NCBI RefSeq assembly: GCF_028389875.1
Contig: NC_084670.1
Location: forward strand, 37,909,333 to 37,973,332
DNA: 64,000 nt
Direction: 5' to 3'
Source: Rhea pennata
Taxonomy: Eukaryota; Chordata; Aves; Rheiformes; Rheidae
Positions 1 through 59,770 of this stretch are shown here, one piece after another. Numbering within the stretch: position 1 is the stretch's first letter; each line of letters starts with the position of its first letter. A model generated the notes under the pieces. It was not told the origin of the DNA. It ran no database searches and saw only the letters and a program-made list of their open reading frames with translations. The position numbers were made by a program, and so were the translations under genes.

Positions 1-3000
1 TATTCTATTGCGTCACATGCTATGGCGTCACATTCTATCGCGTCACAAACATTCTATCACGTCGCATTCTAACACTTCAAAAACATTCTATCGCGTCACA
101 TTCTCTGGCGTCACATTCTATCGCATCACAAGCATTCTATTGCGTCACATTCTATCGCGTCACAAACATTCTATCGCGTCATGTTCTATGCCGTCACAAA
201 CATTCTATGTCGTCACATTCTATGGCGTCACAAACATTCTATCGCGTCACATTCTATCGCGTTACATTCTATCGCGTCACATTCTATCGCGTCACAAACA
301 TTCTATTACGTCAGATTCTATGCATCACAAACATTCTATCGCATCACACTCTTATCCGAGACAAAAATTCTATCGTGTCACATTCTATCGCGTCACATTC
401 TATTGTGTCACATTCTATCGCATCACAAACATTCTATCGCATCACAAACATTCTATCACGTCAATAAATATTCTTTCGCGTCACATTCTATGGCGTCACA
501 TTCTATCGCGTCACATTCTATAGCATCACAAACATTCTATTACGTCACATTATATCTCGTCACATTCTATCGCGTCAGAAACATTCTATCTCCTCACATT
601 CTATCGTGTCACATTCTATCGCGTCACAAACATTCTATGGCATCACATTCTATGGCGTAACAAACATTCTATCGCGTCACATTCTATAGCTTCACATTCT
701 ATCGCGTCACAAACATTCTATTACATCACATTCTATGCATCACAAACATTCTATCGCATCACACTCTATGCCATAACAAACATTCTATCTCGTCACATTC
801 TACTGCATTACATTCTATAGCGTCACATTCTATGCCATCACAAACATTCTATCGCGTCACATTCTATCGCATCACAAACATTCTATCGCGTCACATTCTA
901 TGGCGTCACAAACATTCTATCGCCTCACATTCTATCGCGTCACATTCTATCGCATAACAAACATTCTATCCCGTCACATTCTATTGCATCACAAACATTC
1001 TATCACGTCACAATCTATGCATCACAAACATTCTATCGCGTCACAAACATTCCATCACGTCAATAAATATTCCATCGCGTCACATTCTATCGCGTCACAA
1101 ACATTCTATCACATCACATTCTAACACGTCAAAAACATTCTACTGCATCACATTCTCTGGCGTCACATTCTATCGCATCACAAGCATTGTATTGCGTCAC
1201 ATTCTATCGCGTCACAAACATTCTATCGCGTCACAATCTATGCATCACAAACATTCTATCGCGTCACATTCTATGCCGTCACAAACACTCTATCGCGTCA
1301 CATTCTATCACGTCACATTCTATCGCATCGCAAACATTCTATTGCGTCACAATCTATGCATCACAAACATTCTATCGCGTCACATTCTATGCATCACAAA
1401 CATTCTATCGCGTCACATTCTATCGCGTCACAAACATTCTATCGCGTCACATTCTATGGCGTCACAAACATTCTATCGCTTAACATTCTATCACGTCACA
1501 TTCTATCGCATCACATTCTATGACGTCACATTCTATCGCATCACATTCTGTCGCGTCACAAACATTCTATCGTGTCACAATACATGCCAACACAAACATT
1601 CTATCGTGTCACATTCTATGCCGTCACAAACATTCTATCGCGTCACATTCTATTGTGTCACATTCTATCGCGTCACAAACATTCTATCGCGTCACAATAT
1701 ATGCCATCACAAACATTGTATCGCGTCACATTCTATGCCGTCACAAACATTCTAACGTGTCACATTCTATTGCATTACATTCTATCGTGTCACATTCTAT
1801 CGCGTCACAAACATTCTGTCACGTCACAATCTATTGCCTCACAAACATTTTATTGCGTCACATTCTATCACATCGCGAACATTCTAACCCGTCACATTCT
1901 ATCGCATCACAAACATTCTATCGCGTCACAAACATTCTATCAAGTCAATAAATATTATATCGCGTCACATTCTATCGCGTCACATTCTCTCACGTCACAA
2001 ACATTCTATCACGTCACATTCTATGCCGTCATAAACATTCTATCGTGTCACATTCTCTGGCGTCACATTCTATCGCATCACAAGCATTCTATTGTGTCAC
2101 ATTCTATCGCGTCACAAACATTCTATCGCGTCACGTTCTATGCCGTCACAAACACTCTATCGCGTCACATTCTATCGCGTCACATTCTATCGCGTTACAT
2201 TCTATCGTGTCACATTCTATCGCGTCACAAACATTCCATCACGTCAATAAATATTCTATCGCATGACATTCTGTGGAGTCACATTCTAACACGTCACAAA
2301 CATTCTATCGCGTCACATTCTATCGCTTCACATTCAATCACCAACATTCTATCACGTCAAAAACTATGCATCACAAACACTCTATCGAGTCACATTCTAT
2401 GCCGTCACTAACATTCTATCACGTCACATTCTATCGCGTCGCAAACATTCTGTCGCATCACAATCTATTGCCTCACAAACATTTTATCGCGTCACATTCT
2501 ATCGCGTCATGAACATTCTACCCCGTCACATTCAATCGCATCACAAACATTCTATCACGTCGCATTCTAACACGTCAAAAACATTCTATCGGGTCACATT
2601 CTCTGGCGTCACATTCTATCGCATCACAAGCATTCTATTGCGTCACATTCTATCGCGTCACAAACATTCTATCGCGTCACGTTCTATGCCGTCACAAACA
2701 TTCTATCGCGTCACATTCTATCACGGCACATTCTATGCCGTCACAAACACTCTATCGCTTCACATTCTATCGCATTACAAACATCCTATCACGTCACATT
2801 CTATCGCGTCACATTCTTACGCATCACATACATTCTATTACTTCACATTCTATTGTGTCACATTCTATCGCATCACAAACATTCTATCACGTCAAAATCT
2901 TTGTATCACAAACCTTCAATCGCGTCACATTCTATGCCGTCACGAACATTCTATCGTGTCACATTCTATTGCGTTCCATTCCAACGTGTCACATTCTATC

Positions 3001-4780: not shown

Positions 4781-4918
4781 TCAATAAATATTCTTTCGCG
4801 TCACATTCTATGGCGTCACATTCTATCACGTCACAAACATTCTATCATGTCAATAAATATTCTTTCGCGTCACATTCTATGGCGTCATATTCTATCGCGT
4901 CACAAACATTCTATCATG
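4781..4918 (+). repeat. 69-bp four-monomer tandem duplication inside the satellite
   Basis: Two consecutive copies (4,781-4,849 and 4,850-4,918) of a 20+15+15+19-bp monomer block, each starting with the TCAATAAATATTCTTTCGCG monomer. The shared rare TTTCGCG variant shows they are sister copies. It is the smallest clear multi-monomer duplication I see. Confidence 0.75.
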
Positions 4919-15104: not shown

Positions 15105-15304
15105 NNNNNNNNNNNNNNNNNNNNNNNNNNNNNNNNNNNNNNNNNNNNNNNNNNNNNNNNNNNNNNNNNNNNNNNNNNNNNNNNNNNNNNNNNNNNNNNN
15201 NNNNNNNNNNNNNNNNNNNNNNNNNNNNNNNNNNNNNNNNNNNNNNNNNNNNNNNNNNNNNNNNNNNNNNNNNNNNNNNNNNNNNNNNNNNNNNNNNNNN
15301 NNNN
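15105..15304. other. Assembly gap, 200 N
   Basis: Exactly 200 N interrupt the array. The bases before it end ATTCTATTGC and those after it begin GTCACAAACATTC. In sister copies (for example near 18,260) these two strings are directly joined. Landmarks flanking the gap are 811 bp apart here and 611 bp apart in four sister units. The gap is therefore a fixed-size placeholder, and nothing is missing relative to the other units unless whole repeat units were collapsed. Confidence 0.95.
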
Positions 15305-15608: not shown

Positions 15609-18565
15609 ATGTTCTATCACGTCACATTCAATCGCGTTACAAACATTCTATCGCGTCACATTCTATCGCATCACGTTCTATCGTGTCAAATTCTATCGCG
15701 CCACAAACATTCTATCGCGTCACAATCTCTGCAGCACAAACATTCTGTCGCGTCACAATCTATTGCCTCACAAACATTTTATCGCATCACATTCTATCGC
15801 GTCACGAACATTCTACCCCGTCACATTCTATCGCATCACAAACATTCTATCGCGTCACAAACATTCTATCACGTCAATAAATATTCTATTGCGTCACATC
15901 CTATGGCGTCACATTCTATTGCGTCACAAACATTTTATCACGTCACATTCTAACACGTCAAAACCATTCTATCGCGTCACATTCTCTGGCGTCACATTCT
16001 ATCGCATCACAAGCATTGTATTGAGTCGCATTCTATCGCGTAAAAACCATTCTATCGCGTCACAATCTATGCATCACAAACATTCTATCGCGTCACATTC
16101 TATGCATTCACAAACACTATCGCGTCACATTCTATCGCGCCACATACATTCTATCGCTTCACATTCTATCCCGTCACATTCTATCGCATCACAAACATTC
16201 TATTACGTCAGATTCTATCGCATCATAAACATTCTATCGCGTCACAAACATTCCATCACGTCAATAAATATTCTATCACGACACATTCTATCGCGTTACA
16301 TTCTATCGCGTCACAAACATTCTGTCGCGTCACATTCTATTGCGTTACATTCTATCGTGTCAAATTCTATCGCGCCACAAACATTCTATCGCGTCACAAT
16401 CTCTGCATCACAAACATTCTGTCGCGTCACAATCTATTGCCTCACAAACATTTTATCGCGTCACATTCTATCGCATCACAAACATTCTATCGCGTCACAA
16501 ACATTCTATCACGTCAATAAATATTCTATCGCTTCACATCCTATGGCGTCACATTCTATTGCGTCACAAACATTCTATCACGTCGCATTCTAACACGTCG
16601 AAACCATTCTATCGCGTCACATTCTCTGTCGTCACATTCTATCGCATCAGAAGCATTGTATTGAGTCACATTCTATCGCGTAAAAACCATTCTATCGCAT
16701 CACAATCTATGCATCACAAACATTCTATCGCGTCACATTCTATGCCATCACAAACATTCTATAGCTTCACATTCTATCATGTCACATTCTATCGCATCAC
16801 AAACATTCTATCGCGTCACATTCTATGGCGTCACAAACATTCTATCGCGTCACATTCTATCGCATCACAATCTATTACGTCACATTCTATCGCATCACAT
16901 TCTGTCGCGTCACACACATTCCATCGCGTCACATTCTATCGCGTCACATTCTATTGCATTACATTCTATTGTGTCACATTCTATCGCGTCAAAAACATTC
17001 TATCGCGTCACATTCTATGCCGTCACAAACATTCTATCGTGTCACATTCTATTGCATTACATTCTATCGTATCACATTCTATCGCATCACAAACATTCTG
17101 CCATGTCACAATCTATTTGCTCACAAAGATTTTATCACGTCACATTCTATCGTGTCACATTCTATCGCGTCACAACCATTCTGTCACGTCACAATCTATT
17201 GCCCAACAAACATTTCATTGCGTCACATTCTATCGCATCACAAACATTCTATCGTGTCACATTCTATCGCATCACAAACATTCTATCGCGTCACAAACAT
17301 TCTATCATGTCAATAAATATTCTATCGCGTCACATTCTATGGCGTCACATTCTATCGCGCCATAAACATTCTATCGCGTCACATTCTATGCCATCACAAA
17401 TACTCTATTACGTCACATTCTATCGCGTCACATTCTATTGCCTCACAAACATTCTATCGCGTCACATTCTATCGCGTCACAAACATTCTATCGCGTCAAG
17501 TTCTATGCCGTCACACTCTTTCACGTCACATTCTAGCACGTCACATTCTATCGCATCACAAACATTCTATCGCGTCACATTCTATCGCGTCTCAAACATT
17601 CTATCGCGTCACATTGTATTGCATTACATTCTATCGTGTCACATTCTATCGCGTCACAACCATTCTGTCACGTCACAATCTATTGCCTAAGAAACTTGTT
17701 ATTGCGTAAGATACTATCGCATCACGAACATTCTATCGCATCACAAACATTCTATCACATCAATAAATATTCTATCGCATCACATTCTATCGCGTCACAT
17801 TCTATCGCCTCACAAACATTCTATCGCGTCACATTCTATCGCGTCACAAACATTCTATCGCGTCAAGATCTATGCCGTCACAAACACTCTTTCGCGTCAC
17901 ATTCTATCACGTCACATTCTATCGCATCACAAACATTCTATTGCGTCACACTCTATGCCATCACAAACATTCTATCACGTCACATTCTATCGCGTCACAT
18001 TCTATCGCGTCACAAACATTCTATCGCGTCACATTCTATTGCGTTATATTCTATCGTGTCAAATTCTATCGCACCACAAACATTCTATCGCGTCACAATC
18101 TCTGCATCACAAACATTCTATCGCGTCACAATCTATAGCATCACAAGCATTTTATCGCGTCACATTCTATCGCATCACAAACATTCTATCGTGTCACAAA
18201 CATTCTATCACGTCAATAAATATTCTATCGCGTCACATGCTATGGCTTCACATTCTATTGCGTCACAAACATTCTATCACGTCACATTCTATCGCGTCAC
18301 AAACATTCTATGGCGTCACATTCTATGGCGTCACAAACATTCTATCGCCTCACATTCTATCGCGTCATATTCTATTGCGTGACATTCTACCTGGTCACAT
18401 TCTATGGCGTCATATTCTATCGCGTTACAAACATTCTATAGCGTCACATTCTTTCGTGTCACAAAAATTCTATCGCGTCACATTCTCTCGCATCTCATTC
18501 TATCTCGTCACGACCATTCTGTCACGTCACATTCTATCACGTCACAAACATTCTATCGCACCTAA
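15609..18565 (+). repeat. Higher-order unit, 2,957-bp class
   Basis: Runs from the CTAAATGTTC landmark to its next occurrence. It contains the 16,340-type segment but lacks the segment found at 19,256 in the next unit, so it differs from the longer units by an internal block. Confidence 0.7.
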
Positions 18566-21500
18566 ATGTTCTATCACGTCACATTCAATCGCGTTACAAA
18601 CATTCTATCGCGTCACATTCTATCGCATCACGTTCTATCGTGTCAAATTCTATCGCGCCACAAACATTCTATCGCGTCACAATCTCTGCAGCACAAACAT
18701 TCTGTCGCGTCACAATCTATTGCCTCACAAACATTTTATCGCATCACATTCTATCGCGTCACGAACATTCTACCCCGTCACATTCTATCGCATCACAAAC
18801 ATTCTATCGCGTCACAAACATTCTATCACGTCAATAAATATTCTATTGCGTCACATCCTATGGCGTCACATTCTATTGCGTCACAAACATTTTATCACGT
18901 CACATTCTAACACGTCAAAACCATTCTATCGCGTCACATTCTCTGGCGTCACATTCTATCGCATCACAAGCATTGTATTGAGTCGCATTCTATCGCGTAA
19001 AAACCATTCTATCGCGTCACAATCTATGCATCACAAACATTCTATCGCGTCACATTCTATGCATTCACAAACACTATCGCGTCACATTCTATCGCGCCAC
19101 ATACATTCTATCGCTTCACATTCTATCCCGTCACATTCTATCGCATCACAAACATTCTATTACATCACATTCTATCGCATCACATTCTGTCGCGTTACAA
19201 ACATTCCATCGCGTCACATTCTATCACGTCAGATTCTATTGCGTTACATTCTATTGTGTCACATTCTATCGCGTCACAAACATTCTATCGCGTCACATTC
19301 TATGCCATCACATACATTCTATCGCTTCACATTCTATCATGTCACATTCTATCGCATCACAAACATTCTATCCCGTCACATTCTATCGCATCACATTCTG
19401 TCGCGTCACACACATTCCATCGAGTCACATTCTATCGCGTCACATTCTATTGCGTTACATTCTATTCTGTCACATTCTGTCGCGTCACAAACATTCTATC
19501 GCGTCACATTCTATGCCGTCACAAACATTCTATCGTGTCACATTCTATTGCATTACATTCTATCGTATCACATTCTATCGCGTCACAAACATTCTGCCAT
19601 GTCACAATATATTTGCTCACAAAGATTTTATCACGTCACATTCTATCGTGTCACATTCTATCGCGTCACAACCATTCTGTCACGTCACAATCTATTGCCC
19701 AACAAACATTTCATTGCGTAACATTCTACCGCATCACGAATATTCTATCGCGTCACAAACATTCTATCGCATCACAAACATTCTATCATGTCAATAAATA
19801 TTCTATCGCGTCACATTCTATGGCGTCACATTCTATCGCGCCAAAAACATTCTATCGCGTCACATTCTATGCCATCACAAATATTCTATTACGTCACATT
19901 CTATCGCGTCACATTCTATCGCCTCACAAACATTCTATCGCGTCACATTCTATCGCGTCACAACCATTCTGTCACGTCACAATCTATTGCCTAAGAAACT
20001 TTTTATTCCGTAAGATTCTATCGCATCATGAACATTTTATAGCATCACAAACATTCTATCACATCAATAAATATTCTATCGCGTCACATTCTATGCCGTC
20101 ACAAATATTCTATCACGTCACATTCTATCGCGTCACATTCTATCGCCTCACAAACATTCTATCGCGTCACATTCTATCGCGTCACAAACATTCTATCGCG
20201 TCAAGTTCTATGCCGTCACAAACACACTTTCGCGTCACATTCTATCACGTCACATTCTATCGCATCACAAACATTCTATCACGTCACATTCTGTCGCGTC
20301 ACAAACATTCTATCGTGTCACATTCTATCGCGTAACAAACATTCTATTGTGTCACAATCTATGCCATCACAAACATTCTATCGTGTCACATTCTATGGCG
20401 TCACAAACATTCTATCGCCTCACATTCTATCGCATCACATTCTATCGCATCACAAACATTCTATTACGTCACATTCTATCGCATCATAAACATTCTATCG
20501 CGTCACAAACATTCCATCACGTCAATAAATATTCTATCACGACACATTCTATCGCGTTACATTCTATCGCGTCACAAACATTCTGTCGCGTCACATTCTA
20601 TTGCGTTACATTCTATCGTGTCAAATTCTATCGCGCCACAAACATTCTATCGCGTCACAATCTCTGCATCACAAACATTCTGTCGCGTCACAATCTATTG
20701 CCTCACAAACATTTTATCGCGTCACATTCTATCGCATCACAAACATTCTATCGCGTCACAAACATTCTATCACGTCAATAAATATTCTATCGCTTCACAT
20801 CCTATGGCGTCACATTCTATTGCGTCACAAACATTCTATCACGTCGCATTCTAACACGTCGAAACCATTCTATCGCGTCACATTCTCTGTCGTCACATTC
20901 TATCGCATCAGAAGCATTGTATTGAGTCACATTCTATCGCGTAAAAACCATTCTATCGCATCACAATCTATGCATCACAAACATTCTATCGCGTCACATT
21001 CTATGCCATCACAAACATTCTATAGCTTCACATTCTATCATGTCACATTCTATCGCATCACAAACATTCTATCGCGTCACATTCTATGGCGTCACAAACA
21101 TTCTATCGCGTCACATTCTATCGCATCACAATCTATTACGTCACATTCTATCGCATCACATTCTGTCGCGTCACACACATTCCATCGCGTCACATTCTAT
21201 CGCGTCACATTCTATTGCATTACATTCTATTGTGTCACATTCTATCGCGTCAAAAACATTCTATCGCGTCACATTCTATGCCGTCACAAACATTCTATCG
21301 TGTCACATTCTATTGCATTACATTCTATCGTATCACATTCTATCGCATCACAAACATTCTGCCATGTCACAATCTATTTGCTCACAAAGATTTTATCACG
21401 TCACATTCTATCGTGTCATATTCTATCGCGTCACAACCATTCTGTCACGTCACAATCTATTGCCCAACAAACATTTCATTGCGTCACATTCTATCGCATC

Positions 21501-22861
21501 ACAAACATTCTATCGTGTCACATTCTATCGCATCACAAACATTCTATCGCGTCACAAACATTCTATCATGTCAATAAATATTCTATCGCGTCACATTCTA
21601 TGGCGTCACATTCTATCGCGCCATAAACATTCTATTGCGTCACATTCTATGCCATCACAAATACTCTATTACGTCACATTCTATCGCGTCACATTCTATT
21701 GCCTCAAAAAACATTCTATCGCGTCACATTCTATCGCGTCACAAACATTCTATCGCGTCAAGTTCTATGCCGTCACACTCTTTCACGTCACATTCTAGCA
21801 CGTCACATTCTATCGCATCACAAACATTCTATCGCGTCACATTCTATCGCGTCTCAAACATTCTATCGCGTCACATTCTATTGCATTACATTCTATCGTG
21901 TCACATTCTATCGCGTCACAACCATTCTGTCACGTCACAATCTATTGCCTAAGAAACTTGTTATTGCGTAAGATACTATCGCATCACGAACATTCTATCG
22001 CATCACAAACATTCTATCACATCAATAAATATTCTATCGCGTCACATTCTATGCCGTCACAAATATTCTATCACGTCACATTCTATCGCGTCACATTCTA
22101 TCGCCTCACAAACATTCTATCGCGTCACATTCTATCGCGTCACAAACATTCTATCGCGTCAAGATCTATGCCGTCACAAACACTCTTTCGCGTCACATTC
22201 TATCACGTCACATTCTATCGCATCACAAACATTCTATTGCGTCACACTCTATGCCATCACAAACATTCTATCACGTCACATTCTATCGCGTCACATTCTA
22301 TCGCGTCACAAACATTCTATCGCGTCACATTCTATTGCGTTATATTCTATCGTGTCAAATTCTATCGCACCACAAACATTCTATCGCGTCACAATCTCTG
22401 CATCACAAACATTCTATCGCGTCACAATCTATAGCATCACAAGCATTTTATCGCGTCACATTCTATCGCATCACAAACATTCTATCGTGTCACAAACATT
22501 CTATCACGTCAATAAATATTCTATCGCGTCACATCCTATGGCTTCACATTCTATTGCGTCACAAACATTCTATCACGTCACATTCTATCGCGTCACAAAC
22601 ATTCTATGGCGTCACATTCTATGGCGTCACCAACATTCTATCGCCTCACATTCTATCGCGTCATATTCTATTGCGTGACATTCTACCTGGTCACATTCTA
22701 TGGCGTCATATTCTATCGCGTTACAAACATTCTATAGCGTCACATTCTTTCGTGTCACAAAAATTCTATCGCGTCACATTCTCTCGCATCTCATTCTATC
22801 TCGTCACGACCATTCTGTCACGTCACATTCTATCACGTCACAAACATTCTATCGCACCTAA
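18566..22861 (+). repeat. Higher-order unit, 4,296-bp class (copy 1)
   Basis: Contains both the 19,256-type and the 20,601-type segments. Nearly the same as the unit at 25,662-29,960, with 7,096-7,100 bp between corresponding points. Confidence 0.75.
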
Positions 22862-25661
22862 ATGTTCTATCACGTCACATTCAATCGCGTTACAAACATT
22901 CTATCGCGTCACATTCTATCGCATCACGTTCTATCGTGTCAAATTCTATCGCGCCACAAACATTCTATCGCGTCACAATCTCTGCAGCACAAACATTCTG
23001 TCGCGTCACAATCTATTGCCTCACAAACATTTTATCGCATCACATTCTATCGCGTCACGAACATTCTACCCCGTCACATTCTATCGCATCACAAACATTC
23101 TATCGCGTCACAAACATTCTATCACGTCAATAAATATTCTATTGCGTCACATCCTATGGCGTCACATTCTATTGCGTCACAAACATTTTATCACGTCACA
23201 TTCTAACACGTCAAAACCATTCTATCGCGTCACATTCTCTGGCGTCACATTCTATCGCATCACAAGCATTGTATTGAGTCGCATTCTATCGCGTAAAAAC
23301 CATTCTATCGCGTCACAATCTATGCATCACAAACATTCTATCGCGTCACATTCTATGCATTCACAAACACTATCGCGTCACATTCTATCGCGCCACATAC
23401 ATTCTATCGCTTCACATTCTATCCCGTCACATTCTATCGCATCACAAACATTCTATTACATCACATTCTATCGCATCACATTCTGTCGCGTTACAAACAT
23501 TCCATCGCGTCACATTCTATCACGTCAGATTCTATTGCGTTACATTCTATTGTGTCACATTCTATCGCGTCACAAACATTCTATCGCGTCACATTCTATG
23601 CCATCACATACATTCTATCGCTTCACATTCTATCGCGTCACATTCTATCGCATCACAAACATTCTATCCCGTCACATTCTATCGCATCACATTCTGTCGC
23701 GTCACACACATTCCATCGAGTCACATTCTATCGCGTCACATTCTATTGCGTTACATTCTATTGTGTCACATTCTGTCGCGTCACAAACATTCTATCGCGT
23801 CACATTCTATGCCGTCACAAACATTCTATCGTGTCACATTCTATTGCATTACATTCTATCGTATCACATTCTATCGCGTCACAAACATTCTGCCATGTCA
23901 CAATATATTTGCTCACAAAGATTTTATCACGTCACATTCTATCGTGTCACATTCTATCGCGTCACAACCATTCTGTCACGTCACAATCTATTGCCCAACA
24001 AACATTTCATTGCGTAACATTCTACCGCATCACAAATATTCTATCGCGTCACAAACATTCTATCGCATCACAAACATTCTATCATGTCAATAAATATTCT
24101 ATCGCGTCACATTCTATGGCGTCACATTCTATCGCGCCATAAACATTCTATCGCGTCACATTCTATGCCATCACAAATATTCTATTACGTCACATTCTAT
24201 CGCGTCACATTCTATCGCCTCACAAACATTCTATCGCGTCACATTCTATCGCGTCACAACCATTCTGTCACGTCACAATCTATTGCCTAAGAAACTTTTT
24301 ATTCCGTAAGATTCTATCGCATCATGAACATTTTATAGCATCACAAACATTCTATCACATCAAAAAATATTCTATCGCGTCACATTCTATGCCGTCACAA
24401 ATATTCTATCACGTCACATTCTATCGCGTCACATTCTATCGCCTCACAAACATTCTATCGCGTCACATTCTATCGCGTCACAAACATTCTATCGCGTCAA
24501 GTTCTATGCCGTCACAAACACACTTTCGCGTCACATTCTATCACGTCACATTCTATCGCATCACAAACATTCTATCACGTCACATTCTGTCGCGTCACAA
24601 ACATTCTATCGTGTCACATTCTATCGCGTAACAAACATTCTATTGTGTCACAATCTATGCCATCACAAACATTCTATCGTGTCACATTCTATGGCGTCAC
24701 AAACATTCTATCTATCGCCTCACATTCTATCGCATCACATTCTATCGCATCACAAACATTCTATTACGTCAGATTCTATCGCATCATAAACATTCTATCG
24801 CGTCACAAACATTCTATCACATCAATAAATATTCTATCGCGTCACATTCTATGCCGTCACAAATATTCTATCACGTCACATTCTATCGCGTCACATTCTA
24901 TCGCCTCACAAACATTCTATCGCGTCACATTCTATCGCGTCACAAACATTCTATCGCGTCAAGATCTATGCCGTCACAAACACTCTTTCGCGTCACATTC
25001 TGTCACGTCACATTCTATCGCATCACAAACATTCTATTGCGTCACACTCTATGCCATCACAAACATTCTATCACGTCACATTCTATCGCGTCACATTCTA
25101 TCGCGTCACAAACATTCTATCGCGTCACATTCTATTGCGTTATATTCTATCGTGTCAAATTCTATCGCACCACAAACATTCTATCGCGTCACAATCTCTG
25201 CATCACAAACATTCTATCGCGTCACAATCTATAGCATCACAAGCATTTTATCGCGTCACATTCTATCGCATCACAAACATTCTATCGTGTCACAAACATT
25301 CTATCACGTCAATAAATATTCTATCGCGTCACATCCTATGGCTTCACATTCTATTGCGTCACAAACATTCTATCACGTCACATTCTATCGCGTCACAAAC
25401 ATTCTATGGCGTCACATTCTATGGCGTCACCAACATTCTATCGCCTCACATTCTATCGCGTCATATTCTATTGCGTGACATTCTACCTGGTCACATTCTA
25501 TGGCGTCATATTCTATCGCGTTACAAACATTCTATAGCGTCACATTCTTTCGTGTCACAAAAATTCTATCGCGTCACATTCTCTCGCATCTCATTCTATC
25601 TCGTCACGACCATTCTGTCACGTCACATTCTATCACGTCACAAACATTCTATCGCACCTAA
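22862..25661 (+). repeat. Higher-order unit, 2,800-bp class
   Basis: Like the long unit but without the 20,601-type segment. It carries a small duplication, TATCTATCGCC, near 24,712 that is also seen near 27,512 in the next unit, so the two share recent ancestry over that stretch. Confidence 0.7.
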
Positions 25662-28600
25662 ATGTTCTATCACGTCACATTCAATCGCGTTACAAACATT
25701 CTATCGCGTCACATTCTATCGCATCACGTTCTATCGTGTCAAATTCTATCGCGCCACAAACATTCTATCGCGTCACAATCTCTGCAGCACAAACATTCTG
25801 TCGCGTCACAATCTATTGCCTCACAAACATTTTATCGCATCACATTCTATCGCGTCACGAACATTCTACCCCGTCACATTCTATCGCATCACAAACATTC
25901 TATCGCGTCACAAACATTCTATCACGTCAATAAATATTCTATTGCGTCACATCCTATGGCGTCACATTCTATTGCGTCACAAACATTTTATCACGTCACA
26001 TTCTAACACGTCAAAACCATTCTATCGCGTCACATTCTCTGGCGTCACATTCTATCGCATCACAAGCATTGTATTGAGTCGCATTCTATCGCGTAAAAAC
26101 CATTCTATCGCGTCACAATCTATGCATCACAAACATTCTATCGCGTCACATTCTATGCATTCACAAACACTATCGCGTCACATTCTATCGCGCCACATAC
26201 ATTCTATCGCTTCACATTCTATCCCGTCACATTCTATCGCATCACAAACATTCTATTACATCACATTCTATCGCATCACATTCTGTCGCGTTACAAACAT
26301 TCCATCGCGTCACATTCTATCACGTCAGATTCTATTGCGTTACATTCTATTGTGTCACATTCTATCGCGTCACAAACATTCTATCGCGTCACATTCTATG
26401 CCATCACATACATTCTATCGCTTCACATTCTATCATGTCACATTCTATCGCATCACAAACATTCTATCCCGTCACATTCTATCGCATCACATTCTGTCGC
26501 GTCACACACATTCCATCGAGTCACATTCTATCGCGTCACATTCTATTGCGTTACATTCTATTGTGTCACATTCTGTCGCGTCACAAACATTCTATCGCGT
26601 CACATTCTATGCCGTCACAAACATTCTATCGTGTCACATTCTATTGCATTACATTCTATCGTATCACATTCTATCGCGTCACAAACATTCTGCCATGTCA
26701 CAATATATTTGCTCACAAAGATTTTATCACGTCACATTCTATCGTGTCACATTCTATCGCGTCACAACCATTCTGTCACGTCACAATCTATTGCCCAACA
26801 AACATTTCATTGCGTAACATTCTACCGCATCACGAATATTCTATCGCGTCACAAACATTCTATCGCATCACAAACATTCTATCATGTCAATAAATATTCT
26901 ATCGCGTCACATTCTATGGCGTCACATTCTATCGCGCCATAAACATTCTATCGCGTCACATTCTATGCCATCACAAATATTCTATTACGTCACATTCTAT
27001 CGCGTCACATTCTATCGCCTCACAAACATTCTATCGCGTCACATTCTATCGCGTCACAACCATTCTGTCACGTCACAATCTATTGCCTAAGAAACTTTTT
27101 ATTCCGTAAGATTCTATCGCATCATGAACATTTTATAGCATCACAAACATTCTATCACATCAATAAATATTCTATCGCGTCACATTCTATGCCGTCACAA
27201 ATATTCTATCACGTCACATTCTATCGCGTCACATTCTATCGCCTCACAAACATTCTATCGCGTCACATTCTATCGCGTCACAAACATTCTATCGCGTCAA
27301 GTTCTATGCCGTCACAAACACACTTTCGCGTCACATTCTATCACGTCACATTCTATCGCATCACAAACATTCTATCACGTCACATTCTGTCGCGTCACAA
27401 ACATTCTATCGTGTCACATTCTATCGCGTAACAAACATTCTATTGTGTCACAATCTATGCCATCACAAACATTCTATCGTGTCACATTCTATGGCGTCAC
27501 AAACATTCTATCTATCGCCTCACATTCTATCGCATCACATTCTATCGCATCACAAACATTCTATTACGTCAGATTCTATCGCATCATAAACATTCTATCG
27601 CGTCACAAACATTCCATCACGTCAATAAATATTCTATCACGACACATTCTATCGCGTTACATTCTATCGCGTCACAAACATTCTGTCGCGTCACATTCTA
27701 TTGCGTTACATTCTATCGTGTCAAATTCTATCGCGCCACAAACATTCTATCGCGTCACAATCTCTGCATCACAAACATTCTGTCGCGTCACAATCTATTG
27801 CCTCACAAACATTTTATCGCGTCACATTCTATCGCATCACAAACATTCTATCGCGTCACAAACATTCTATCACGTCAATAAATATTCTATCGCTTCACAT
27901 CCTATGGCGTCACATTCTATTGCGTCACAAACATTCTATCACGTCGCATTCTAACACGTCGAAACCATTCTATCGCGTCACATTCTCTGTCGTCACATTC
28001 TATCGCATCAGAAGCATTGTATTGAGTCACATTCTATCGCATAAAAACCATTCTATCGCATCACAATCTATGCATCACAAACATTCTATCGCGTCACATT
28101 CTATGCCATCACAAACATTCTATAGCTTCACATTCTATCATGTCACATTCTATCGCATCACAAACATTCTATCGCGTCACATTCTGTGGCGTCACAAACA
28201 TTCTATCGCGTCACATTCTATCGCATCACAATCTATTACGTCACATTCTATCGCATCACATTCTGTCGCGTCACACACATTCCATCGCGTCACATTCTAT
28301 CGCGTCACATTCTATTGCATTACATTCTATTGTGTCACATTCTATCGCGTCAAAAACATTCTATCGCGTCACATTCTATGCCGTCACAAACATTCTATCG
28401 TGTCACATTCTATTGCATTACATTCTATCGTATCACATTCTATCGCATCACAAACATTCTGCCATGTCACAATCTATTTGCTCACAAAGATTTTATCACG
28501 TCACATTCTATCGTGTCACATTCTATCGCGTCACAACCATTCTGTCACGTCACAATCTATTGCCCAACAAACATTTCATTGCGTCACATTCTATCGCATC

Positions 28601-29960
28601 ACAAACATTCTATCGTGTCACATTCTATCGCATCACAAACATTCTATCGCGTCACAAACATTCTATCATGTCAATAAATATTCTATCGCGTCACATTCTA
28701 TGGCGTCACATTCTATCGCGCCATAAACATTCTATCGCGTCACATTCTATGCCATCACAAATACTCTATTACGTCACATTCTATCGCGTCACATTCTATT
28801 GCCTCACAAACATTCTATCGCGTCACATTCTATCGCGTCACAAACATTCTATCGCGTCAAGTTCTATGCCGTCACACTCTTTCACGTCACATTCTAGCAC
28901 GTCACATTCTATCGCATCACAAACATTCTATCGCGTCACATTCTATCGCGTCTCAAACATTCTATCGCGTCACATTCTATTGCATTACATTCTATCGTGT
29001 CACATTCTATCGCGTCACAACCATTCTGTCACGTCACAATCTATTGCCTAAGAAACTTGTTATTGCGTAAGATACTATCGCATCACGAACATTCTATCGC
29101 ATCACAAACATTCTATCACATCAATAAATATTCTATCGCGTCACATTCTATGCCGTCACAAATATTCTATCACGTCACATTCTATCGCGTCACATTCTAT
29201 CGCCTCACAAACATTCTATCGCGTCACATTCTATCGCGTCACAAACATTCTATCGCGTCAAGATCTATGCCGTCACAAACACTCTTTCGCGTCACATTCT
29301 ATCACGTCACATTCTATCGCATCACAAACATTCTATTGCGTCACACTCTATGCCATCACAAACATTCTATCACGTCACATTCTATCGCGTCACATTCTAT
29401 CGCGTCACAAACATTCTATTGCGTCACATTCTATTGCGTTATATTCTATCGTGTCAAATTCTATCGCACCACAAACATTCTATCGCGTCACAATCTCTGC
29501 ATCACAAACATTCTATCGCGTCACAATCTATAGCATCACAAGCATTTTATCGCGTCACATTCTATCGCATCACAAACATTCTATCGTGTCACAAACATTC
29601 TATCACGTCAATAAATATTCTATCGCGTCACATGCTATGGCTTCACATTCTATTGCGTCACAAACATTCTATCACGTCACATTCTATCGCGTCACAAACA
29701 TTCTATGGCGTCACATTCTATGGCGTCACAAACATTCTATCGCCTCACATTCTATCGCGTCATATTCTATTGTGTGACATTCTACCTGGTCACATTCTAT
29801 GGCGTCATATTCTATCGCGTTACAAACATTCTATAGCGTCACATTCTTTCGTGTCACAAAAATTCTATCGCGTCACATTCTCTCGCATCTCATTCTATCT
29901 CGTCACGACCATTCTGTCACGTCACATTCTATCACGTCACAAACATTCTATCGCACCTAA
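25662..29960 (+). repeat. Higher-order unit, 4,299-bp class (copy 2)
   Basis: Matches 18,566-22,861 in monomer order and in most single-base variants. A partial further unit begins at 29,961 and matches for about 690 bp before diverging near 30,650. Confidence 0.75.
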
Positions 29961-31962
29961 ATGTTCTATCACGTCACATTCAATCGCGTTACAAACATTC
30001 TATCGCGTCACATTCTATCGCATCACGTTCTATCGTGTCAAATTCTATCGCGCCACAAACATTCTATCGCGTCACAATCTCTGCAGCACAAACATTCTGT
30101 CGCGTCACAATCTATTGCCTCACAAACATTTTATCGCATCACATTCTATCGCGTCACGAACATTCTACCCCGTCACATTCTATCGCATCACAAACATTCT
30201 ATCGCGTCACAAACATTCTATCACGTCAATAAATATTCTATTGCGTCACATCCTATGGCGTCACATTCTATTGCGTCACAAACATTTTATCACGTCACAT
30301 TCTAACACGTCAAAACCATTCTATCGCGTCACATTCTCTGGCGTCACATTCTATCGCATCACAAGCATTGTATTGAGTCGCATTCTATCGCGTAAAAACC
30401 ATTCTATCGCGTCACAATCTATGCATCACAAACATTCTATCGCGTCACATTCTATGCATTCACAAACACTATCGCGTCACATTCTATCGCGCCACATACA
30501 TTCTATCGCTTCACATTCTATCCCGTCACATTCTATCGCATCACAAACATTCTATTACATCACATTCTATCGCATCACATTCTGTCGCGTTACAAACATT
30601 CCATCGCGTCACATTCTATCACGTCAGATTCTATTGCGTTACATTCTATTTTGTCACATTCTATCGCGTCACAAACATTCTATCGCGTCACATTCTATGC
30701 CGTCACAAACATTCTATCGTGTCACATTCTATTGCATTACATTCTATCGTGTCACATTCTATCGCCTCACAAACATTCTGTCACGTCACAATCTATTTGC
30801 TCACAAACATTTTATCACGTCACATTCTATTGTGTCACATTCTGTCGCGTCACAACCATTCTGTCACGTCACAATCTATTGCCCAACAAACATTTTATTG
30901 CGTAACATTCTATCGCATCACGAACATTCTATCCCGTCACATTCTATCCCATCACAAACATTCTATCGCGTCACAAACATTCTATCACGTCAATAAATAT
31001 TCTATCGCGTCACATTCTATGGCATCACATTCTATCGCGTCATAAACATTCTATCTCGTCACATTCTATGCCGTCACAAATATTCTATCGCGTCACATTC
31101 TATCGCCTCACAAACATTGTATCGCGTCAAGTTCTATGCCATCACAAACACACTTTCGCGTCACATTCTATCACGTCTCATTCTATCGCATCACAAACAT
31201 TCTATCGCGTCACAAACATTCTATCACGTCACATTCTATCGCGTCACATTCTATTGCGTTACATTCTATTGTGTCAAATTCTATCGAATCACAAACATTC
31301 TGTTGCGTCACAATCTATGCCATCACAAACATTCTATCGCGTCACATTCTATGGTGTCATAAACATTCTATCACATCACATTCTATCGCGTCACAAACAT
31401 TCTATCGCGTCACATTCTATGGCGTCACATTCTATCGCGTCACAAACATTCTATCGCCTCACATTCTATCGCGTCACATTCTATCGCATCACAAACATTC
31501 TATTCGGTCACATTCTATCGCATCACGTTCTATTGCATTACATTCTATTGTGTCACATTCTATCGCATCACAAACATCTATTGCGTCACAATCTATGCCA
31601 TCACAAAGATTATATCGCGTCACATTCTATGGTGTCACAAACATTCTATTACGTCACATTCTATCGCATCACATTCTATCGCATCACAAACATTCTATCG
31701 CATCACATTCTATCGTGTCACATTCTATTGCGTTACATTGTATCGTGTCACATTCTATCATATCACAAACATTCTATCACGACGCAATCTATGCATCACA
31801 AACATTCTATCGCGTCACATTCAATGGCGTCACATTCTATCACGTCACAAACATTCTATCACGTCACATTCTAAAACGTCAAAAACATTCTATCGCGTCA
31901 CATTATCTGGCGTCACATTCTATCACATCACAAGCATTGTATTGCGCCACATTCTATCGCGT

Positions 31963-32040
31963 CACGTGCCTACACTTGAATGTGACGTGATATTCACGTG
32001 CCTATCGTGACGCACATTCTCGTCACATTCCACTGCGTGA
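31963..32040. repeat. Satellite domain junction with one reversed monomer
   Basis: The regular monomer rhythm breaks here. GAATGTGACGTGATA at 31,978-31,992 is the reverse complement of a normal satellite monomer. It is flanked by two direct copies of CACGTGCCTA (31,963-31,972 and 31,995-32,004). The homogenised zone lies upstream. Downstream monomers belong to a different, less ordered population. Confidence 0.7.
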
Positions 32041-34184: not shown

Positions 34185-37162
34185 AACATTCTATCGCGTC
34201 ACAAACATTCTATCACGTCAATAAATATTCTATCGCGTCACATTCTATGGCGTCACATTCTATCGCGTCATAAACATTCTATCGCGTCACATTCTATGCC
34301 GTCACAAATATTCTATCACGTAACATTCTATCGCGTCACATTCTATTGCGTTACATTCTATCGTGTCACATTCTATCGCATCACAAACATTCTATTGCGT
34401 CACAATCTATGCCATCACAAACATTCTATCGCGTCACATTCTATGCATCACAAACATTCTATCACGTCACATTCTATCGCGTCACAAACATTCTATCGCG
34501 TCACATTCTATCGCGTCACAAACATTCTATCGCCTCACATTCTGTCGCGTCACATTCTATTGCGTTACAATCTATCGTGTCAAATTCTATCGCGCCACAA
34601 ACATTCTATCGTGTCACAATCTCTGCATCACAAACATTCTGTCGCGTCACAATCTATTGCCTAACAAACATTTTATCGCGTCACATTCTATCGCGTCACG
34701 AACATTCTATCCCGTCACATTCTATCTCATCACAAACATTCTATCGCGTCACAAACATTCTATCACGTCTATAAATATTCTATCGCATCACATTCTATGG
34801 CGTCAGAAACATTCCATCGGGTCACAATCCATACATCACAAACATTCTATTGTGTCACATTCTTTCGCGTCACATTCTATCTCGTCACAAAAATTCTATC
34901 GCGTCACAAAGATTTTATTTTCTCAAATTCTATTGCACACATTCTATCGCGTCACATTCTATGCCGTCAGAAAAATTTTAGCGCATCACACTCTATCGCG
35001 TTGAATTTTATAGCGTCAGAAACATTCTATCGCATCACATTCTATTGCATCACAAACATTCTTTCGCGTCACATTTTATTGCGTCAAATTCTTTCGTGTC
35101 ACATTCTTTTGCGTCACATTCTATCGCGTCACATTCTATAGCGTCACGAATATTCTGTCACGTCACATTCTATCGCGTCACAAACATTCTATCGCATCAC
35201 ATTCTATCGCTTACATTCTATCGCGTCACAAACATTCTACCGTGTCTTATTCTATGCCATCACAAATGTTCTATCGCGTCACATTCTATTGCGTCACATT
35301 CTATCCTGGCACAAACATTCTATCGCATCACATTCTATCCTGTCACATTCTGTCGCATCAGAAACATTCTATTGTGTCACATCCTGTCACGTCACAAAGA
35401 TTCCATTGCGTCACAATCTATGCATCACAAAAATTCTATGGCGTCACATTCTATCGCGTTACATTCTATCATATCACAAACATTGTATCGCTTCACATTC
35501 TGTGGCATCACATTCTGTTGCGTCACAAACATTCTATTACGTCACATTCTATCGCGTCACATTCTATCGCGTCACGAACATTCTATCGCGTCACATTCTG
35601 TCGCGTCACAAAAATGCTATCGCGTCTCATTATATGTCGTCACAAACATGCTATCATTTCGCATTCTATCACGTTAAAAACATTCTATCGCGTCACATTC
35701 TGTGGCGTCACTTTCTATCACATCACAAGTATTCTATTGCGTGACATTCTATTTTGTCACAAACATTCTATCACGTAACAATCTATGCATCACAAACATT
35801 CTATCGCATCACATTCTATCGCGTCACATTCTATGCCGTCACATATTATTGTATCCGATACATTCTATTGCTTCACATTCCATCGCGTCACATTCTACCG
35901 CGTGACATTCTATCCTGTCACAAATATTCTATAGCGTCACATTCTATTGCATCACAAACATTCTATAACGTCACATTCTATCACATCAAAAACATTCTAT
36001 CGCGTCACATTCTGTGGCGTCACTTTATATCACATCAGGAGGATTCTATTGCGTGACATTCTAAAGCGTCACAAATATTTTATCGCTTCACATTATATGG
36101 AATCACATTCTGTCGCGTCACAAACATTATATTACGTCACATTCTATCGCATCACATTCTACCACATCACAGATATTCTATCCCATCACATTCTATCGTG
36201 TCACAAACATTCTATCGCTTCACATTTTATGGCATCACATTACGTCGCGTCACATTCTATCACGTCAAAAACACTCTGTCGCGTCACATTCTGTGGCGTC
36301 ACAAACATTATAACGCGTCACATTCTATCACATCAAAAGCTCTCTATCACGTGACATTCTGTGGCGTCACTTTCTATCACATCAGAAGCATTCTATTGCG
36401 TCACATTTTATCGCGTCACAAACATTCTATCGTATCACAATCTATGCATCACAAACATTCTATCGCGTCACATTCTTTCGCGTCACATTCTATCGCATCA
36501 CAAGCATTCTACTGCCTCACATTCTGTTGCATCACAAACATCCTATCGGGTCACATTCTATGTCGTCACAAACATTCTATCGCGTCACATTATTGCGTCA
36601 CATTCTATCGCGTCACAAACATTCTATTGCGTCACATTCTATCACGTCAAAAACATTCTATCGCCTCACATTCTGTGGCGTCATTTTCTGTCATATCACA
36701 AGCATTCTATTGCGTAACATTCTATCGCGTCAGAAATATTCTATAGCGTCACAATCTATGCATCACAAACATTCTACCGCATCACATTCTTTCGAGTCAC
36801 ATTCTATCGCATCACAAACATTATATCGCGTCACAATATATCACGTCACATTCTATTGTGTCACAAATATTGTATCGCATCACATTCTATCGCGTCACAT
36901 TCTATCGCGTCACAAACATTCTATCGCGTCACAATCTATGCCATCACAAACATTCTATCGCGTCACATTCTATGCCATCACAAACATTCTATCGCGTCAC
37001 ATTGTATCGCGTCACATTCTATCGCGTAACAAACATTCTGTCGCATCACATTCTATGCCATCACAAACATTTTTTCGAGTCACAATCTATGCATCACAAA
37101 CGTTCTACTGCGTCACAATCTATCGCGTTACATTCTATCGCATCACAAGCATTCCATTGCGT
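34185..37162 (+). repeat. 2,978-bp tandem duplication, copy 1
   Basis: Every landmark I compared repeats 2,978 bp downstream: 34,211 and 37,189, 34,797 and 37,775, 36,527 and 39,505. The stretches compared by eye are identical, including rare variants such as GGGTCACAATCCATACATC. The upstream boundary is where TCACAAACATTC gives way to the shared ACATTCTATCGCGTCAC. Confidence 0.9.
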
Positions 37163-40149
37163 GACATTCTATCGCGTCACAAACATTCTATCACGTCAAT
37201 AAATATTCTATCGCGTCACATTCTATGGCGTCACATTCTATCGCGTCATAAACATTCTATCGCGTCACATTCTATGCCGTCACAAATATTCTATCACGTA
37301 ACATTCTATCGCGTCACATTCTATTGCGTTACATTCTATCGTGTCACATTCTATCGCATCACAAACATTCTATTGCGTCACAATCTATGCCATCACAAAC
37401 ATTCTATCGCGTCACATTCTATGCATCACAAACATTCTATCACGTCACATTCTATCGCGTCACAAACATTCTATCGCGTCACATTCTATCGCGTCACAAA
37501 CATTCTATCGCCTCACATTCTGTCGCGTCACATTCTATTGCGTTACAATCTATCGTGTCAAATTCTATCGCGCCACAAACATTCTATCGTGTCACAATCT
37601 CTGCATCACAAACATTCTGTCGCGTCACAATCTATTGCCTAACAAACATTTTATCGCGTCACATTCTATCGCGTCACGAACATTCTATCCCGTCACATTC
37701 TATCTCATCACAAACATTCTATCGCGTCACAAACATTCTATCACGTCTATAAATATTCTATCGCATCACATTCTATGGCGTCAGAAACATTCCATCGGGT
37801 CACAATCCATACATCACAAACATTCTATTGTGTCACATTCTTTCGCGTCACATTCTATCTCGTCACAAAAATTCTATCGCGTCACAAAGATTTTATTTTC
37901 TCAAATTCTATTGCACACATTCTATCGCGTCACATTCTATGCCGTCAGAAAAATTTTAGCGCATCACACTCTATCGCGTTGAATTTTATAGCGTCAGAAA
38001 CATTCTATCGCATCACATTCTATTGCATCACAAACATTCTTTCGCGTCACATTTTATTGCGTCAAATTCTTTCGTGTCACATTCTTTTGCGTCACATTCT
38101 ATCGCGTCACATTCTATAGCGTCACGAATATTCTGTCACGTCACATTCTATCGCGTCACAAACATTCTATCGCATCACATTCTATCGCTTACATTCTATC
38201 GCGTCACAAACATTCTACCGTGTCTTATTCTATGCCATCACAAATGTTCTATCGCGTCACATTCTATTGCGTCACATTCTATCCTGGCACAAACATTCTA
38301 TCGCATCACATTCTATCCTGTCACATTCTGTCGCATCAGAAACATTCTATTGTGTCACATCCTGTCACGTCACAAAGATTCCATTGCGTCACAATCTATG
38401 CATCACAAAAATTCTATGGCGTCACATTCTATCGCGTTACATTCTATCATATCACAAACATTGTATCGCTTCACATTCTGTGGCATCACATTCTGTTGCG
38501 TCACAAACATTCTATTACGTCACATTCTATCGCGTCACATTCTATCGCGTCACGAACATTCTATCGCGTCACATTCTGTCGCGTCACAAAAATGCTATCG
38601 CGTCTCATTATATGTCGTCACAAACATGCTATCATTTCGCATTCTATCACGTTAAAAACATTCTATCGCGTCACATTCTGTGGCGTCACTTTCTATCACA
38701 TCACAAGTATTCTATTGCGTGACATTCTATTTTGTCACAAACATTCTATCACGTAACAATCTATGCATCACAAACATTCTATCGCATCACATTCTATCGC
38801 GTCACATTCTATGCCGTCACATATTATTGTATCCGATACATTCTATTGCTTCACATTCCATCGCGTCACATTCTACCGCGTGACATTCTATCCTGTCACA
38901 AATATTCTATAGCGTCACATTCTATTGCATCACAAACATTCTATAACGTCACATTCTATCACATCAAAAACATTCTATCGCGTCACATTCTGTGGCGTCA
39001 CTTTATATCACATCAGGAGGATTCTATTGCGTGACATTCTAAAGCGTCACAAATATTTTATCGCTTCACATTATATGGAATCACATTCTGTCGCGTCACA
39101 AACATTATATTACGTCACATTCTATCGCATCACATTCTACCACATCACAGATATTCTATCCCATCACATTCTATCGTGTCACAAACATTCTATCGCTTCA
39201 CATTTTATGGCATCACATTACGTCGCGTCACATTCTATCACGTCAAAAACACTCTGTCGCGTCACATTCTGTGGCGTCACAAACATTATAACGCGTCACA
39301 TTCTATCACATCAAAAGCTCTCTATCACGTGACATTCTGTGGCGTCACTTTCTATCACATCAGAAGCATTCTATTGCGTCACATTTTATCGCGTCACAAA
39401 CATTCTATCGTATCACAATCTATGCATCACAAACATTCTATCGCGTCACATTCTTTCGCGTCACATTCTATCGCATCACAAGCATTCTACTGCCTCACAT
39501 TCTGTTGCATCACAAACATCCTATCGGGTCACATTCTATGTCGTCACAAACATTCTATCGCGTCACATTATTGCGTCACATTCTATCGCGTCACAAACAT
39601 TCTATTGCGTCACATTCTATCACGTCAAAAACATTCTATCGCCTCACATTCTGTGGCGTCATTTTCTGTCATATCACAAGCATTCTATTGCGTAACATTC
39701 TATCGCGTCAGAAATATTCTATAGCGTCACAATCTATGCATCACAAACATTCTACCGCATCACATTCTTTCGAGTCACATTCTATCGCATCACAAACATT
39801 ATATCGCGTCACAATATATCACGTCACATTCTATTGTGTCACAAATATTGTATCGCATCACATTCTATCGCGTCACATTCTATCGCGTCACAAACATTCT
39901 ATCGCGTCACAATCTATGCCATCACAAACATTCTATCGCGTCACATTCTATGCCATCACAAACATTCTATCGCGTCACATTGTATCGCGTCACATTCTAT
40001 CGCGTAACAAACATTCTGTCGCATCACATTCTATGCCATCACAAACATTTTTTCGAGTCACAATCTATGCATCACAAACGTTCTACTGCGTCACAATCTA
40101 TCGCGTTACATTCTATCGCATCACAAGCATTCCATTGCGTGACATTCTA
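37163..40149 (+). repeat. 2,978-bp tandem duplication, copy 2
   Basis: Second copy of the preceding block. Matching ends near 40,149, where GACATTCTA is followed by CTGCG instead of TCGCG. The apparent identity implies either a recent tandem duplication or an assembly duplication. Confidence 0.9.
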
Positions 40150-42392
40150 CTGCGTCACAAACATTCTATCGCGGCACATTCTGTGACGTCATTTTCTATC
40201 AAAACACAAGCATTCTATTGCGTGACATTCTATCACGTAACAAACATTCTATCGAGTCACAATCTATGCATCACAAACATTCTCTCGCATCACATTCTTT
40301 CGCGTTACATTCTATCGCGTCACGAATATTCTGTCATGTCACATTCTATGCCGTCACAAACATTCTATCGCGTCACATTCTATCGAGTCACAATCTATGC
40401 ATCACAAACATTCTATCGCATCATATTCTATCGCGTCACACTCTATCGCATCACAGACATTCTATCACGTCATAATCTATAGCGTCACATTGTATTGCAA
40501 CACAAAGTTTGTATCGTATCACATTCTATCGCGTCACATTCTATCGCATCACGAACGTTCTATTGCGTCACATTCTATGCCATCATAAACATTCTATTGC
40601 GTCACATTCTATCGCATCACATTCTATCACGTCAAAACATTATGTCGCGTCACATTCTCTGCTGTCACAAACATTCTATCGCGTCACACTCTATCGCGTT
40701 GCGTTCTACGGCCTCACAAACATTCTACCGCGTCACATTCTATCGTGTCATATTCTATCGCCTCACAAACATTCTATCGCGTCACATTCTATGCCGTCAC
40801 AAACATTCTATCGCTTCACATTCTATGCTGTAACAAACATTCTATCGCGTCATATTCTATCGTATCACATTCTATCGCATCACAAACATTCTATGGCGTC
40901 ACATTCTATCTCGTCACAAACATTATTTCACTTTACAAACACTCTATCGCGTCACATTTTATCGCGTCACATTTTATGCCGTCACAAACTTTCTATCGCA
41001 TCACAATATATTGCGTCACATTCTATCGCATCACAAACATTCTATCACTTCACATTCTGTTGCGTCACAAGCATTCTATCGCGTCACAATCTATCGCGTC
41101 ACAAACATTCTATCGTGTCATATACTATCACGTCACATTCTAGCACATCACAAACATTCTAGTGCGACACATTCTATAGCGTCGCATTCCATCGCGTCAC
41201 AAACATTCTAACGCATCACGTTCTATCGCGTCACATTCTATCACGTCAAACATTCTATCACATCAGAAAGATTCTATTGCGTCACGTTCTATCGTGTCAC
41301 ATTCTATCGCGTCAGAAACATTCTATAGCGTCACCTTCTATCGCTTCACAAACATTGTAGCGTCTCACATTCTATCGCGTCGCATTCTATCGCGTCACAA
41401 ACATTCTATCGCTTCACAAACATTCCATTGCGTCACTTTCTATCGCGTCACATCCTATCACATCACAAACATTAATATCACTTCACATTCTATCGTGTCA
41501 CATTGTATCGCATTACATTCTATTGCATCACAAACATTCTATCGCGTCGCATTCTACTGCGTAATATTCTATCACGTAACCAACATCCTATCGCGTCACA
41601 TCCTATCGCGTCACAAACATTCTATCACTTCATATTCTATTGCATCACATCCTATCGCATCACAAACATTCTATCACTTCATATTCTATTGCATCACATT
41701 CTATCGCGTCACAAACATTCTATCACTTCATATTGTATTGTACCGCATTCTATCGCGTCAGATTCTATCGTATCACATTCTATCATGTCATATTCTATCA
41801 CTTCAAAAACATTTTATAGCGTCAAATTCTGTCATGTGATAAACATTCTATCGCGTCACATTCTATCGCGTCACACAAATTCTATCGTGTCACAGTGTAC
41901 CGCATCACATTCTATTATGTCACAAATGTTGTATCGCATCACATTCTATCGCGTCACAAACATTCTGTTGTGTAACATTCTATTGCATCACAAACATTCT
42001 ATCGTGTCACAAACATTCTACGCGTCACATTCTATCGCATCACAAACATTCTATTGCGTCACATTCTATCGTGTAACATTCTATATCATCACAAACATTC
42101 TATCGCGTCACATTCTATCACCTCAAATTCAACATGCTATTGTGTCACATTCTATCGCATTACAAACATTCTATCACATCACATTCTATTGCGTCACATT
42201 CTATCGTGTCACAAACATTCTATCGCTTCACATTGTATCTCGTCACATTCAATCACATCACAAACATTCTATAGTGTCACATTCTATCTCATTACAAACA
42301 TTCTATCAAGTCACATTCTATCGCGTCACATTCTATTGTGTCACAAATATTCTATTGCTTCACATTCTATCGCATCCATTCTGTCACGTCAG
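40150..42392 (+). repeat. Diverged satellite tail
   Basis: The last 2.2 kb still consists of monomers, but with more indels and odd variants (for example GTAGCGTCTCAC near 41,350 and AACATTAATATCAC near 41,470). I see no long-period copy elsewhere. Decay toward an array edge is typical where unequal exchange no longer homogenises copies. The last recognisable monomer ends near 42,392. Confidence 0.75.
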
Positions 42393-44618: not shown

Positions 44619-44700
44619 ATGGGCAAAGAGACGTCAGGCTCAGGAGCCTCAGGAGCTCGCCACTCCAAGGACAGAGGAGAGCGGACAGAGGTTCCAGGCT

Positions 44701-47254: not shown

Positions 47255-47257
47255 GCC

Positions 47258-59760: not shown

Positions 59761-59770
59761 TACTTAACCG

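Follow-up and report, generated by a model that had tools for sequence, protein, structure and literature searches.

Why a bird contig should carry tens of kilobases of short tandem repeat beside olfactory-receptor (OR) genes is the question raised by the stretch of Rhea pennata DNA analysed here, a window of 64,000 bp (C8:37,909,333-37,973,332, where C8 is the 38,578,059-bp contig NC_084670.1). The preliminary description placed a 42-kb satellite at positions 1 to 42392. The satellite is real, but its extent had to be revised: the whole array (array 2 below) is 62,051 bp long, begins 19,660 bp left of the window, so that window position 1 is a mere window edge, has its last base at ~42391 and contains a 200-N gap. 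The description was correct as far as it went and incomplete in that the array is one of six sampled arrays set between blocks of OR sequence. We propose, at a probability of about 0.65, that the array is a non-coding satellite spacer with fast turnover in a tandemly amplified OR region of composite units; this reading leaves out any causal part of the satellite in the amplification.

The arrangement on C8 carries this proposal. All six sampled arrays (arrays 0 to 5, Table 1) lie on the plus strand, and the consecutive OR blocks between sampled junctions measure 130,312 (A), 130,316 (B), 130,322 (C) and 130,336 bp (D), such that block length is constant to 24 bp and array length varies ninefold. 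The composite unit, one OR block with one array, is ~137-192 kb, and the series lies 0.1-1 Mb from one contig end. Both sides of array 2 recur at its sister arrays: its left flank is 99.5-99.7% identical to those of arrays 1, 3 and 4 (over 324-420 bp) and its right flank 99.6-100% identical to those of arrays 0, 1 and 3 (over 455-580 bp), and three of the five assembly places of its right junction are exact, one having a single mismatch and one (array 4) three. Sampled block stretches of 1.6-8.4 kb are likewise 99.5-99.9% identical between blocks. An exact 34-mer is found 395 times on the plus and 185 times on the minus strand of the assembly (reversed control, 0), and the 100 places among the matches listed are all on the C8 plus strand. 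The right junctions of arrays 0, 1 and 3 and the left junctions of arrays 1 and 4 were located in slices picked by means of the offsets between matching block stretches. Judged by junctions and sampled stretches, four blocks of a first type stand in one orientation with OR frames, that is, as tandem head-to-tail gene units of the kind that defines gene-bearing macrosatellites. The alternation of arrays with near-identical ~130-kb OR blocks suggests that repeats and blocks multiply together by misaligned crossing-over.

Within the window the array is a single head-to-tail satellite, broken only by the N gap and a small irregular stretch. All monomers share a 14-bp core, ATTCTATCGCGTCA, and carry exchangeable heads, C in the 15-mer, CAAAC in the 19-mer and ATAAAT in the 20-mer, the first two of which differ by the CAAA insertion noted earlier. 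Dynamic-programming string decomposition of positions 1-42392 gave 2546 segments; after exclusion of 20 (6 that fitted poorly and 14 that lay within the N gap or at its border), 2505 of the 2526 scored monomers have lengths of 14, 15, 19 or 20 bp (1375 15-mers, 977 19-mers, 86 14-mers and 67 20-mers, other 21), and the head counts are 1273 for C, 651 for CAAAC and 56 for ATAAAT, the remainder being variants. Tandem Repeats Finder (TRF) covers positions 2-42391 with periods of 15, 19, 34, 49, 83 and 208. The two methods, which the preliminary description had proposed, thus bear out its monomer alphabet and its single core with interchangeable heads. Its frequent 34-bp dimers also hold, since autocorrelation is highest at lag 34, followed by 15, 49 and 83. 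Adjacent 19-mer pairs are scarce (80 seen versus 389 expected), and all 67 occurrences of the 20-mer precede a 15-mer, 63 of them also following a 19-mer. Array GC content is ~40%. Head-to-tail monomers over many kilobases make this satellite DNA, and multi-monomer blocks that are more alike than single monomers make it a higher-order repeat. The monomer start, ATTCTAT, is reminiscent of the sequence in which avian CR1 elements end on their 3' side (ATTCTATG), and a CR1 origin of the satellite would be conceivable.

The order of the heads had been described as acting like a code that is copied at larger scales. Copying is evident: in a string of 2532 monomers, from which gap segments were omitted so that both sides of the gap count as neighbours, exact repetition extends over as many as 179 consecutive monomers, whereas none of 200 within-class shuffles exceeded 5; in the class string the longest repeat is 181, and none of 200 strings from a third-order Markov model went beyond 41. 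A plain sequential grammar of head order is thereby rejected, as a third-order Markov model of head classes fails to yield such long repeats. Self-comparison revealed, among the matches listed, alignments at offsets of 2978 bp (3007 bp long, 99.93% identical), 7118 bp (6328 bp, 98.0%), 4296 bp (3102 bp, 97.1%) and 2780 bp (3966 bp, 93.4%). What had looked like a code in the head order is the record left by blocks of ~2.8-7.1 kb that were duplicated in phase; these duplications account for the order, which needs no separate meaning.

The likeness of internal copies varies along array 2. Over the first 11 kb, the top internal matches of 1-kb bins are at 77-84% (none for the bin over an insert described below) and those of the last two bins at 78%, versus at least 95% in 17 of the 18 bins between 32 and 50 kb, with one bin at 89%. 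We placed 54 slices of neighbouring arrays on array 2, 32 from array 1 (ten of them cut from stretch L006) and 22 from array 3. At the left edge, slices to ~11 kb lie in place at 99.3-100% identity (those of array 1 shifted by 265 bp), with one exception at 94.3%, and near the right edge, those from the final ~3-4 kb are off place by at most ~80 bp, at 98.7-100%, with one exception at 95.2%. The interior of array 3 is mostly in the order of array 2 (97.7-100%), displaced by ~4-6 kb; array 3 is without the amplified 34-50 kb zone, and one copy of the 2978-bp block is enough to fit its slices. Inside array 1 the order is not kept, and best matches there span 87-100%. The whole of array 2 decomposes into 3694 monomers, among which no reverse-strand core was found at up to 3 mismatches, and the 14/15/19/20-bp monomer length is kept in 3532 of the 3578 monomers beyond its first 2 kb. 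Colinear edges, displaced interiors and kept monomer length are what misaligned homologous exchange predicts when edges escape homogenisation, and we consider it very probable that such exchange, in phase, shapes the satellite itself. Array length would change through exchange of this kind within an array, be it unequal crossing-over or unequal sister-chromatid exchange, and occasional exchange between neighbouring arrays could duplicate or delete a whole OR block. Sister arrays that agree in order at their edges and are displaced inside preserve a readable record of satellite turnover.

The array also stands out by its CpG content. The 62 kb of array 2 contain 4263 CpGs and 1838 CGTCA words, and CpG observed/expected is 2.2, versus 0.16 in the right flank of the window, 0.10 in stretch L005 and 0.18 in the mid-chromosome stretch L018. 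CpG islands are defined by an observed/expected ratio of at least 0.6 and a GC content of at least 50%; the ratio of the array lies above the first threshold and its GC content below the second. Across 3509 cores, CpG sites show transitions in 16.4% per site compared to 4.4% at other Cs. CpG transitions in the two largest block copies, a mutually overlapping pair, amount to 0.037 and 0.040 per CpG base versus 0.0026 and 0.0034 elsewhere, a 12- to 14-fold excess, and a third block copy has 4 CpG changes versus 0 others; three non-satellite comparisons gave CpG excesses of ~28- to 48-fold on few changes. Because CpG transitions exceed other transitions, the arrays are likely methylated in the germline, to judge from this mutation spectrum; the excess may also be an indirect sign of heterochromatic packaging.

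Several observations weigh against the reading as a fast-turning spacer and its corollaries. Two between-array comparisons gave CpG excesses of just 6- and 3-fold, on few changes. Intact CpGs stand at 0.49-0.59 in all five zones, the old edges being about equal to the young centre, and a renewal of CpGs by turnover is therefore unsupported. The other arrays and blocks are known from sampled slices and junctions rather than from whole sequence, and the copy number rests on an assembly that has a gap in array 2 itself. Finally, block E is of mixed type. A second unit type is made up of the right-hand portion of block E and of the unit that adjoins array 0 on its left; slices of this type are 96-98% identical among themselves, and their matches to the first type are at 82-98% or lacking altogether. 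In the first 32 kb of block E, five of six slices are first-type (96.8-100%) and one (L060) has no match in place. The change of type occurs in non-satellite sequence, at ~38.294-38.323 Mb, and at least one change point is therefore outside the satellite.

This last observation bears on what part, if any, the satellite plays in the amplification. That satellite-located exchange would be the source of OR block amplification is a tentative proposal, to which we grant somewhat less than an even chance. The stronger version, in which the satellite would be an engine of OR repertoire change, with the arrays as preferred exchange points for gain and loss of 130-kb blocks, we regard as unlikely; if it were true, the rate at which OR number changes in a lineage would be set by array length. 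The satellite may instead be a passive hitch-hiker with neutral turnover, lying inside a segment that was amplified via homologous OR genes or other block sequence and taking no part in the amplification, an alternative that is quite possible and yet falls short of even odds. Besides the type change in block E, it is favoured by blocks that are full of internal paralogues (for instance, 94-97% identical between stretches L011 and L013, with inverted copies at 90-94% between the window flank and stretches L004, L014 and L019), which could pair equally well. Against it, the two unit types adjoin within array 0, whose left edge is of the second type and whose right edge is of the first, and strong differences in length are confined to the arrays, block length being constant.

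A second alternative is that the assembly strung allelic copies of a single block together in tandem, which would make the series false in whole or in part. The identity of the blocks is what two haplotypes could show, and there is the 200-N gap in the array; however, the first-type blocks, at least four of them in a single orientation and separated by arrays of differing length, are more than two haplotypes would give, and the array in the window alone has many internal copies at all levels of divergence. Moreover, related arrays adjoin OR-like sequence on other contigs too. A rarer exact 39-mer occurs 57 times on the plus and 49 times on the minus strand of the assembly, distributed among the matches listed (100 of 106) over C8 (35), C138 (6), C139 (1), C146 (5), C147 (11) and C149 (42), with one strand per contig. 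Slices from these five other contigs (n = 18) comprise 7 of satellite and 11 that are not, and 7 of the 11 match C8 OR-block sequence at 88-97.5%, the other 4 having no match to the compared part of a block; the satellite therefore tends to adjoin this OR sequence. We consider an assembly artefact improbable.

A CpG-island-like regulatory element, in which the CpG-dense array would bind factors through CGTCA half-sites or CXXC proteins and govern OR choice, would suit the CpG density and CGTCA words given above and the OR genes alongside, but the excess of CpG transitions points to methylation, units that are otherwise near-identical differ in array length (6.7 to 62 kb) and CGTCA simply belongs to the monomer, so that such a role is very unlikely. 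A centromeric or pericentromeric satellite, as the long AT-rich tandem array, its higher-order blocks and its position less than 1 Mb from a contig end might suggest, is hardly credible for an array interrupted by ~130-kb blocks with open OR frames and a 39-mer found, among the same matches, on only 6 of 180 contigs.

The positions of the arrays, of the duplicated blocks and of the OR sequence are collected in Table 1.

Table 1. Features of the satellite series and of the window (window positions, except where C8 coordinates are given).
Feature	Position	Strand	Basis or remark
Array 0	left edge near C8 37.531 Mb, right end 37,570,231	+	samples
Array 1	C8 37,700,544-37,759,356; 58,813 bp	+	junctions
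Array 2 (window's)	C8 37,889,673-37,951,723; 62,051 bp including N gap	+	junctions
Array 3	C8 38,082,046-38,124,937; 42,892 bp	+	junctions
Array 4	C8 38,255,274-38,261,958; 6,685 bp	+	junctions
Array 5	C8 ~38.399-38.46 Mb	+	samples
Array 2, right 42.4 kb	1..42391	+	continues left beyond window to C8:37,889,673
200-N scaffold gap inside array	15105..15304	.	flanks abut, no base between, in at least 3 paralogous blocks
6.3-kb block, copy 1	17332..23650	+	98.0% to 24450-30749, offset 7118; self-comparison, among the matches listed
6.3-kb block, copy 2	24450..30749	+	self-comparison, among the matches listed
Irregular stretch with short inverted piece of monomer, between two CACGTGCCTA copies	31965..32012	.	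read by eye
Tandem duplication, copy 1	34186..37192	+	offset 2978 bp, 99.93%; self-comparison, among the matches listed; array 3 slices fit single copy
Tandem duplication, copy 2	37164..40170	+	offset 2978 bp; self-comparison, among the matches listed
Right junction of array	42377..42411	+	5 places in assembly at up to 3 mismatches, all C8 +
OR block C, first 21.6 kb	42392..64000	.	130,322 bp total by junctions
OR sequence over two overlapping frames	42804..43852	-	PF13853 on both open reading frames
OR sequence over two frames	44362..45497	+	PF13853 on both open reading frames
Partial OR open reading frame, 204 aa	52142..52756	+	PF13853

The 200-N gap looks like a scaffolding break and not like lost sequence, because its flanks abut exactly in the paralogous copies; on this comparison, sequence is probably not missing there. 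Near the left edge of array 2 lies a non-satellite insert of ~700 bp (array positions 1279-1982, C8 ~37,890,952-37,891,654), which is also present in array 4 (99.3% over the 301 bp compared) and, reversed and at 85%, in the C8 37.41 Mb stretch (L008), and is therefore a dispersed repeat. Outside the satellite series, inverted copies of ~6.7 kb that are 94-96.5% alike lie 0.4 Mb apart at C8 37.41 Mb (L008 1-6749) and 37.01 Mb (L009 29-6707). Neither end of C8 reads as a telomere here, as positions 1-7500 are 7,500 N and the last 3 kb contain just 3 scattered CCCTAA words.

An open reading frame (ORF) of 300 aa at 41503-42405, across the array end, was rejected as coding: it is compositional, because the 34-bp consensus is without stops in all three plus-strand frames. 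No structured RNA matched Rfam at gathering score within the window. In the flank of the window, PF13853 is matched by 5 of 10 tested ORFs, each along part of the profile only, and open frames of 318-328 aa in neighbouring stretches (L005, L007, L012 and L016) were assigned to OR by receptor motifs alone. A 189-aa ORF at 63274-63843 gave no Pfam match at E 0.01; it resembles a dispersed repeat of bird genomes, and the flank presumably also holds CR1-like sequence.

It is difficult to count near-identical OR genes and to follow how they are gained and lost, and a constant OR block with a variable array offers a concrete physical unit of such gain and loss. With this arrangement, the idea that satellites favour amplification of the gene families next to them can also be put to the test. 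Six exact 12-15-base repeat words retrieved, from open-access texts, matches on unrelated subjects only (by titles and abstract openings), the combination of monomer lengths yielded unrelated matches only in the open-access literature, and no description of a satellite alternating with OR blocks was found in open-access titles and abstract openings. The satellite family itself was not found in the open-access texts searched, Dfam, Repbase and other bird genomes being outside that search.

Among known systems, the beta-satellite of human 19p12 is the case in which, by the title of Eichler 1998, satellite structure was reportedly tied to the expansion of a gene cluster, there of zinc-finger genes; species, satellite and gene family all differ from ours. 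Precedents also exist in birds for parts of the arrangement, namely PO41 between regions of the major histocompatibility complex (MHC; PMC4988538) and the amplification of OR29G (PMC9974502). Like the present satellite, PO41/CNM is a bird tandem repeat between blocks of multigene families (excerpts of PMC4988538 and PMC9974502): G+C-rich 41-nt repeats separate MHC-Y from MHC-B, and chiasmata are reported within them (PMC4988538). Identity with PO41/CNM, already doubted in the preliminary description, is rejected, as TRF found no 41-bp period; instead of 41-nt G+C-rich units, monomers of mixed 14/15/19/20 bp at ~40% GC lie here between near-identical OR blocks. The OR29G amplicon, of which 386 intact copies are reported in pericentromeric heterochromatin of chicken chromosome 29, is similar in that an OR gene of a bird is highly amplified in satellite-rich heterochromatin, whereas the excerpted source describes no named satellite alternating with constant 130-kb blocks, and here a many-gene block is joined to an array (PMC9974502). 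Macrosatellites and chicken HINT1W, a 5.6-kb gene-bearing tandem unit, are likewise large tandem units that hold genes, according to portions of PMC3018141 and PMC9974502; by contrast, the unit described here is ~137-192 kb, and its length varies via the satellite embedded in it.

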